In this document: one piece after another, positions 56,074-58,902 of the stretch
Position numbering within the stretch: the first letter of the stretch is position 1
How the letters are laid out: each line of letters opens with the position of its first letter
Assembly (NCBI GenBank): GCA_013001295.1
Contig: JABDMW010000024.1
Coordinates: 1 to 64,000, forward strand
Direction: 5' to 3'
DNA from: Hyphomonadaceae bacterium
GTDB lineage: Bacteria; Pseudomonadota; Alphaproteobacteria; Caulobacterales; Maricaulaceae
DNA length: 64,000 nucleotides
Translations under genes and position numbers: made by a program
The notes under the pieces: model-generated
The model's input: only the letters and a program-made list of their open reading frames with translations
Databases searched by the model: none
Told to the model about the DNA's origin: nothing

Positions 56074-58164
56074 TTAGTGAGCCAGGATCGCCAGCATCAG
56101 CAATGCGATGATATTTGTAATCTTGATCATCGGATTGACCGCTGGACCAGCTGTATCCTTGTACGGGTCACCAACAGTGTCACCGGTCACGGAAGCTTTA
56201 TGGGCTTCTGAACCTTTACCACCGTGATTACCATCTTCGATATATTTCTTGGCATTGTCCCAAGCACCACCGCCGGCTGTCATCGACAGGGCAACGAACA
56301 GGCCGGTCACAATCACACCCAAGAGCATCGCGCCAAGTGCGGCCAATGCCTGTTCCATGCCTGCCATGGTTTTGACAGCGAAGAACAGAACGATCGGAGC
56401 CAGGATTGGCAAGAGCGATGGCTTGATCATCTCTTTGATGGCTGCGCCGGTCAGAAGATCAACCGCCTTGGCATAGTCCGGGCGAGATGTGCCTTTCATG
56501 ATACCAGGATCAGCTTTGAACTGACGGCGAACTTCTTCAACAATTGCACCCGCAGCACGACCGACTGATTGCATGGCCCACGCACCAAACAGGTATGGCA
56601 AGAGACCACCAATAAACAGGCCGACAATCACATAAGGATTGGTCAGCGAGAAGTCAGCCACAAGACCTGTCAGCGCATTGTCCGGCTGTGCCGAGAAATA
56701 CTCGATGTCTTTGTAATAGGCTGCGAAGAGAACGAGAGCACCGAGACCCGCAGAGCCAATAGCATAGCCTTTGGTCACCGCTTTGGTCGTATTGCCCACC
56801 GCATCAAGTGCATCTGTTGTCTTGCGAACTTCTGGCTCGAGTTCGGCCATTTCCGCAATACCACCCGCATTGTCGGTCACAGGACCGAAAGCGTCGAGCG
56901 CAACGATCATACCGGCAACGCCGAGCATAGCCGTAACCGCGATCGCAATACCGTAAAGTCCGGCCAGCGAAAATGTTGTGATAATACCGAAGACAATGAT
57001 CAGAACCGGAATGGCTGTTGCTTCCATAGAGACCGCTAGGCCCTGGATAACATTGGTCCCGTGTCCGGATTCAGACGCAGCGGCTACAGACTTAACCGGG
57101 CGGAAACTTACGCCCGTATAGTATTCTGTGACCACAACAATTGCGCCGGTAATGATCAGACCAATAACGGAACAAATAAACAAGTCCTGTCCTGAGAAAG
57201 CCGTGCCTGCGATGTCGCCAAAGCCGAGCATATAGTGTGTCACACCGGCGATTGCTGCTGCGGATAAAACACCTGTTGCAATCAAGCCTTTATACAGCGC
57301 GCCCATGACGTTGGTTGAGCCTTTGCCCAAACGAACGAAATAGGTTCCGATAATAGACGTGACGATACACGCGGCTGCGATCCCCATTGGATACAAGGCC
57401 AGAGACCCGACCGTACCAAATAGAATTGAACCCAAAACCATAGTCGCGGCGATTGTCACCACATAGGTTTCAAACAAATCAGCGGCCATACCAGCACAGT
57501 CCCCAACATTATCACCAACATTATCAGCAATTGTTGCCGGGTTGCGGGGATCATCTTCCGGGATACCCGCTTCGACTTTACCGACCAAATCGCCGCCAAC
57601 GTCCGCACCTTTAGTAAAGATGCCGCCGCCGAGACGGGCAAATACGGAAATCAAAGAAGCACCGAGAGACAGTGATACGAGACCGTCAATAACGCCGCGT
57701 TCGTCTGCACCCATTGGACCGGTCAACATCATGTAATAAACGGACAGACCAAGCAGCGCCAGACCGGCGACTAGCATGCCTGTGATGGCGCCGGCTTTAA
57801 AGGCAATATCAAGACCAGCGCCTAAGCTTTTGCGTGAGGCTTCGGTTGTCCGGACATTGGCCTGAACAGACACCAACATGCCGACATAGCCTGCAAGACC
57901 TGACAGAACAGCGCCGATGACAAAGCCAACAGGCGCGATGGCGTTTTTAAACAGAACAAACAATAAAATGGCGACCACAACACCGACAACGGCGATGGTC
58001 TTATATTGTTTGGCGAGATAGGCTTTCGCGCCTTCCTGAATCGCACCCGCGATTTCATTCATGCGTTCATTGCCGGTTGAGGCTTTCATAAGCCCCGCAC
58101 GGGTAACTATCCCGTAAAGTACCGCGAGCAGGCCTGCCCCGATAATTAGATAAAGAGTATTCAC
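56074..58164 (-). CDS. hppA: Proton-translocating membrane pyrophosphatase, K+-independent type
   Basis: The 696-residue protein is a 16-helix proton pump driven by pyrophosphate hydrolysis. The catalytic loops are visible: [40 protein letters not shown] and [32 protein letters not shown] has Lys at the position that is Ala in potassium-dependent enzymes, so this pump is likely K+-independent. The start is a GTG with GGGAGAG upstream. It shares its neighbourhood with soluble pyrophosphatase ppa. Confidence 0.94.
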
Positions 58165-58221
58165 TTGATCTCTCCCTCATTATTAGACGCTCTTTGATGA
58201 GTGTCCGTTGATTAAATGAAG

Positions 58222-58301
58222 TTGGCCGTGCTTGATCCGCACGCTTCCCCTCGCGATTAGTGAGATTGGCCGTATTTTCGAAAAATACGCTTCCCCTCGC
58301 G
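58222..58301 (-). repeat. Two tandem hairpin units in the hppA leader
   Basis: Two units of 34 and 36 bases (58222-58255 and 58266-58301) share eight bases on one side (TTGGCCGT) and fifteen on the other (ACGCTTCCCCTCGCG), while the centres differ in sequence. In both, the centre extends the flanking CGT/ACG pairing: GC/GC around a 7-base loop in one, ATTTT/AAAAT around three bases in the other. Paired variation of this kind points to selection on structure. In hppA orientation each reads CGCGAGGGGAAGCGT, stem-loop, ACGGCCAA. They lie 58-140 bases before the hppA start. Confidence 0.7.
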
Positions 58302-58312
58302 TGATGGGGGGC

Positions 58313-58340
58313 AAAGTAACGTCATTCCGCGAGGAATCAA
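58313..58340 (-). promoter_or_regulatory. Candidate hppA promoter
   Basis: On the reverse strand TTGATT (58340-58335) and TACTTT (58318-58313) are spaced by 16 bases. A start near 58306 would place both tandem hairpin units within the first 90 nucleotides of the hppA leader. Confidence 0.45.
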
Positions 58341-58377: not shown

Positions 58378-58902
58378 CTATTTTGCGGCTTTGACCCCGG
58401 CTCTGATCAAGGCTTCGGCCTTTTCTTTGCCTTCCCAACCCAGGACTTTGACCCATTTATTGTCTTCAAGGTCTTTATAATGGTCAAAGAAATGCGAGAT
58501 CCGCTTGAGCATGATTTCCGGCATATCCGTGTGGGTTTCAACTTTGTCATAGAAACGGGTGAGGCTATGATGGGGGACGGCGAGGATTTTCTCATCAATC
58601 CCGGCTTCATCTTCCATCATCAACACGCCGATCGGACGGGCCCGAACGACCGCACCCGGCACCAAAGCCCGATTGCCATAGACCAAAACATCTGTCGGGT
58701 CCCCGTCGTCGGACAAAGTGTGGGGGATGAAGCCATAATTACATGGATAGCGCATGGATGTGTACAGGAAACGATCAACAAACATGGCACCAGAGGCCTT
58801 GTCCATTTCGTATTTGATCGGTTCACCGCCCAAAGGCACTTCAATAATCACATTGATATCGGTGGGCGGGTTTTCACCCGCTGGGATTTTTGACATATCC
58901 AT
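58378..58902 (-). CDS. ppa: Inorganic pyrophosphatase (soluble, family I)
   Basis: The 174-residue enzyme hydrolyses pyrophosphate to phosphate. Family I motifs are [40 protein letters not shown] and the metal-binding DEAGIDEKI. It lies immediately upstream of hppA on the same strand, separated by 213 bases that contain the candidate promoter and the tandem hairpins. Having both pyrophosphate-consuming enzymes adjacent is notable. Confidence 0.96.

Follow-up and report, generated by a model that had tools for sequence, protein, structure and literature searches.

The window analysed here, a 64,000-nucleotide stretch of DNA, carries two similar hairpins in tandem ahead of a pyrophosphatase gene, and the question raised by this locus is whether they form a regulatory RNA and, if so, how they might act on that gene. 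The gene, hppA (56074..58164, minus strand, GTG start), encodes a membrane pyrophosphatase (NCBIfam V_PPase and PRK00733.1-2 above cut-off) with the GNTTKA signature of the K+-independent type, and is the presumed target. Its upstream neighbour is ppa (58378..58902, minus strand), encoding a soluble inorganic pyrophosphatase (NCBIfam NF002317 above cut-off).

Architecture of the hppA leader

The minus strand between ppa and hppA reads CGCGAGGGGAAGCGU-AUUUUUCGAAAAU-ACGGCCAA-UCUC and then CGCGAGGGGAAGCGU-GCGGAUCAAGC-ACGGCCAA-CUUC, giving two units between a likely promoter and hppA with the general form CGC-GAGG-GGAA-GC-variable hairpin-GGCCAA-CUUC. The preliminary description had placed two units of 34-36 nt within 58222-58301, with 23 identical flanking bases and centres that differ in sequence while retaining self-pairing. 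This is confirmed: the units lie at 58222-58255 (34 nt) and 58266-58301 (36 nt), the identical bases are TTGGCCGT (8) and ACGCTTCCCCTCGCG (15), and covariation across related leaders agrees with the pairing of the centres. The flanking arms, which it took as the core, are indeed conserved, but the core also comprises a 4-pair stem, P1, and an invariant internal loop. The element exceeds the earlier coordinates, adding the 3′ strands UCUC (58262-58265) and CUUC (58218-58221) and a possible Shine-Dalgarno partner at 58175-58181.

Unit 1 occupies 58260..58301 on the minus strand, with P1 formed by GAGG (58295-58298) and UCUC (58262-58265), the invariant loop by GGAA (58291-58294) and CAA (58266-58268), and the apical stem-loop in between; covariation also supports it. 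Unit 2 (58216..58255, minus strand) has the same loop and apical stem-loop, with P1 formed by GAGG (58249-58252) and CUUC (58218-58221). Covariance model R1 matches unit 1 at 58260-58301 with 50.9 bits (E 4.7e-7) and unit 2 at 58216-58255 with 54.8 bits (E 7.0e-8), E values that must be read with both window units being among the 50 sequences from which the model was built.

A likely sigma-70-type promoter, TTGATT-16-TACTTT, was read from the sequence at 58313..58340 on the minus strand. The preliminary description had proposed this promoter; its sequence is as described and nearly all 43 related leaders have a TTGA-type −35 ~40 nt ahead of unit 1, but a generic consensus promoter scan did not list 58313-58340. 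From the −35 spacing we infer a transcription start a few bases before unit 1, near 58305 in the window. In two leaders (L008, L009) terminator-like hairpins, each with a T run after it, are found between the upstream gene and the hppA promoter.

Alignment of the units defines a 4-pair P1 (GAGG/CUUC), topped by an asymmetric internal loop that is invariant (GGAA on the 5′ strand, CAA on the 3′ strand, one G bulged) and then by an apical stem that varies. Pairing is kept in 92.4% of the alignment cells, compared with 38-50% when the alignment is slid, and 83 double-change cells are observed against 26.6 in shuffles. P1 is paired in 99% of cells, including the variants GAAG/CUUC, GGGG/CUCC and GAGG/UCUC. 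Shifting P1 to the register GAAG/CUUC accounts for the variants less well than GAGG/CUUC and reveals no compensation. Because P1 hardly varies in unit 2, covariation does not speak separately for its pairing in that unit. Seventeen columns of the alignment are invariant, and all 50 aligned units share a 5′ GGAAGCG and a 3′ CGGCCAA. The apical parts range from 13 to 64 nt, show compensatory changes and fold better than their shuffles (mean z −2.3). A purine-rich, Shine-Dalgarno-like apical loop, GGGGAG or GGGAGG, recurs in one of the two units in many leaders, for example L006, L007, L021 and L054.

Variable apical parts that keep pairing and covary around an invariant internal loop argue for an RNA structure rather than a DNA operator or REP element. 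Paired DNA operators for a transcription factor acting just downstream of the promoter would account for two like palindromic units beside that promoter; the inserts between the conserved arms, however, vary from 13 to 64 nt with pairing kept, the orientation is always sense to hppA, and the units carry complementarity to the hppA start region, so we consider operators very unlikely. The comparative data instead support the earlier suggestion of a selected, tandem and apparently riboswitch-like RNA structure in the hppA 5′ leader, and a conserved structure in the regulated gene's 5′ leader is what is expected of a riboswitch.

Distribution and linkage to hppA

In the 3.49-Mb genome the exact pattern occurs only at the two window sites, and among 137 family genomes it occurs in 23, with no matches for the reversed-pattern control in either search; in all 23 it lies just upstream of hppA in the sense orientation. 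A second collection (one genome per species, 84,980 species) gave matches in Hellea (among them Hellea balneolensis DSM 19091), in Robiginitomaculum and in contigs of uncultured Caulobacterales, every one of them located at hppA. Both named genera belong to Robiginitomaculaceae in the NCBI taxonomy. Five further matches outside this group had no hppA nearby and were set aside.

The unit is present in 43/43 leaders from one hppA clade (Hellea, Robiginitomaculum and relatives), taken from the hppA genes closest to that of the window, whose full-length members are at least 83% identical to it. Two units separated by 2-6 nt are found in 42 of these leaders, the sole exception being L069, in which the first unit is degenerate. 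More distant hppA genes of the family (~73% identity or less when full-length) have leaders without the element, and inspection by eye found no such element ahead of hppA in sequences from a further 29 families of the class.

The covariance model, built from 50 units, was run on the genomes of the order and class. In the order it matched 26 genomes of the window's family, while among 385 genomes of the class only the window's own genome was matched at meaningful scores. There were two further matches: one in G800 is weak (E 0.08), and one in G396, from the order, is spurious, as it falls within a coding sequence of cysN/C type and has abutting arms and no apical stem. The preliminary description had proposed both an arm search and a covariance model; the genuine whole-genome matches from these are all directly upstream of hppA. 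Its expectation of conservation upstream of hppA in relatives holds for the clade leaders and fails for the family's other genera and the rest of the class. Conservation ahead of hppA is thus confined to the clade and does not extend through the family or class; the element is specific to this lineage and linked to a single clade of hppA genes.

The same distribution bears on the proposal of a REP-like or other mobile repeat. Palindromic units in tandem are compatible with such a repeat, but the genome holds just two, adjacent, copies rather than the many dispersed copies of a REP family, none is scattered away from hppA, and the genuine copies in relatives are all at hppA. The distribution therefore excludes this explanation.

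The element follows hppA rather than ppa, which is found within ~1.5 kb upstream in only 11 of 23 leaders; ppa is a neighbour, not an obligatory partner. In both of two hppA trees a single change of label (element present or absent) suffices. A single origin in the hppA tree is not firm, as branch support depends on the rows used: it is 100 in a tree that included two rows translated out of frame, and 58 in the corrected tree.

Other pyrophosphatase leaders show features of their own. Instead of this hppA, the window's genus mates (G105-G117; L189, L190) have a pyrophosphatase of 38-48% identity; two that were checked carry the GNTTAA signature of the K+-dependent type, and two leaders of GNTTAA-type pyrophosphatases examined in full are without the element. 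In other genera of the family (L070-L109) a different 5′ element is seen, in which GGGGAGGG stands shortly downstream of the −10 and a hairpin and a CCUC-like partner come next; CCUCA of L079 and L085 is also able to pair with the Shine-Dalgarno, and the L070-L109 element possibly follows the same logic as the tandem leader with another core. In 37 leaders of the L070-L109 set, the last 130 nt before hppA hold 23 copies of GANTC, the site methylated by CcrM (~4.8 per kb vs 2.0 per kb just upstream); GANTC is not enriched in the tandem leaders. Across the class (L143-L171) a promoter-like block, GGTTGC...TTTGGCATGTTCCGCGCG, recurs upstream of hppA in many families.

Pairing with the start region and proposed mechanism

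Adding to the preliminary reading, the 3′ strand of unit 2 is by sequence also complementary to the ribosome-binding site or the start codon. The tail of this unit (CUUCAUAAC and variants) can pair either with its own GAGG or with the hppA Shine-Dalgarno region or start codon. In the window, the putative anti-Shine-Dalgarno strand CUUCAUU (58215..58221, minus strand) shares its CUUC with P1 of unit 2 and makes a 7-pair match to AAUGAGG at 58175-58181, within the Shine-Dalgarno and the bases 5′ of it, AAUGAGGGAGAG (58170..58181, minus strand). In the leaders, unit 2 is followed by CUUCAUAA, CUUCAUU or CUUCAG, complementary to a Shine-Dalgarno region that reads UUAUGGGG, AAUGAGG or CUGAGG. One subclade differs in that its UCAUAACA is complementary to UGUUAUGA, a site containing the start codon. 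This complementarity persists across the clade through sequence changes.

The unit 2 strand pairs with its own start region at −6.2 kcal/mol and with swapped regions at −5.15 (0/5000 permutations as good), although the leaders are related and the swap test overstates their independence. In an internal control, predicted pairing of the start region is stronger with the unit 2 strand than with its unit 1 counterpart in 29/41 leaders (p 1e-4). The match in a single leader beats its own shuffles at 0.05 in 23/43 cases, the window leader not being among them (p 0.18), and several leaders (L011, L016, L052, L056, L059) have weak extended pairing with the start region. The swap and internal-control tests support a second pairing option for the unit 2 strand, with the Shine-Dalgarno or start codon, as a prediction from sequence. 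In the unbound predicted ensembles CUUC of unit 2 is paired with the start region at 0.56 and with its own unit at 0.16, and CUUC of unit 1 with its own unit, in either register, at 0.76. Cross-pairing of the unit 1 CUUC with the unit 2 GAGG has low predicted probability (mean 0.07).

Comparison of the leaders establishes conservation, pairing, tandem architecture, exclusive linkage to hppA and start-region complementarity. On these grounds the hppA mRNA probably begins with a cis-regulatory RNA composed of two like tandem sensor hairpins and an expression platform controlling translation. Because CUUC of unit 2 is common to P1 and the anti-start helix, a translational switch is the natural model. 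In the default fold, the unit 2 CUUC strand and the next bases would pair with the Shine-Dalgarno or start codon, which would lower hppA translation. A ligand or factor occupying the invariant loops would allow P1 of unit 2 to form and reclaim CUUC, and the ribosome-binding site would then be freed; two units would steepen the response. The switching itself, its sign (ON when bound) and the signal are what we infer here. When both units were forced to form, mean predicted Shine-Dalgarno accessibility went from 0.23 to 0.24 (p 0.51), with gains in some leaders only, so the folding predictions do not on average support the freeing of the Shine-Dalgarno by unit formation, and the energies do not support the sign. 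The energy model is blind to the invariant loop, to ligand and to protein, and this result is neither proof nor disproof.

Candidate signals would include pyrophosphate, phosphate, Mg2+, fluoride and pH. Pyrophosphatases are inhibited by fluoride, which makes it plausible as a signal for the hppA leader. A symmetric 5x5 loop (GGAAG vs GCCAA), if formed, could oppose A and C as protonated A.C pairs and respond to acidity. Tentatively, the leader may represent a new riboswitch class in which two homologous aptamers sense pyrophosphate or a linked energy, ion or pH signal and tune the membrane proton-pumping pyrophosphatase.

It is also possible, though doubtful, that an RNA-binding protein, perhaps dimeric, recognises the two units and so represses or activates translation of hppA, and the same CUUC toggle may follow. 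A short hairpin with an invariant asymmetric internal loop, in two adjacent copies at one target gene in one clade, would suit a protein site as well; nothing in the sequence separates protein from ligand. A purely structural role, in which the folded 5′ end shields the mRNA from decay or fixes the translation rate without sensing, is unlikely: the units start within a few bases of where the mRNA is predicted to begin and the predicted default fold is stable, as this would require, but the invariant internal-loop bases and the alternative partner of CUUC are left unexplained.

Comparison with known leader RNAs

Rfam 15 contains no family matching the region around the element at E up to 5. A further Rfam 15 scan gave only chance matches to two non-bacterial snoRNA/scaRNA models (E 1.3 and 3.7), and the leaders of 10 relatives had no match. 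By covariance-model match the element therefore belongs to no Rfam 15 family, the glycine, guanidine-II and fluoride families included. The hppA leader RNA is not described in the literature searched; a 2017 survey of 224 candidate structured RNAs fell outside that search, so novelty is provisional, and we regard the element as a candidate class of leader RNA, tandem and translational, with a core of its own. Neither Rfam nor the literature searched yielded an RNA that regulates membrane pyrophosphatases in bacteria. With its tandem units and its restriction to hppA, which encodes a pyrophosphate-driven proton pump, in ~43 genomes of a group of marine bacteria, the leader would represent an RNA sensor tied to pyrophosphate energy metabolism. 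Since the element is small, with clear invariant positions and specific predicted mutations, ligand and mechanism are directly testable.

The tandem glycine riboswitch has cooperative homologous aptamers that are directly adjacent and serve one expression platform (PMC9481103). The hppA leader resembles it in having two homologous adjacent units with one putative expression platform, and differs in that its units are single hairpins with an internal loop. The guanidine-II (mini-ykkC) riboswitch likewise consists of two small tandem hairpins; its conserved bases are, however, in the apical loops, whereas the hppA units have variable apical loops and an invariant internal loop. The fluoride riboswitch (crcB), unlike the hppA leader, is a single pseudoknotted aptamer. 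Similar in predicted logic are translational riboswitches in which the anti-Shine-Dalgarno strand is shared with aptamer P1, as the hppA leader appears, from sequence and folding models, to use one strand for both P1 and the start-region helix.
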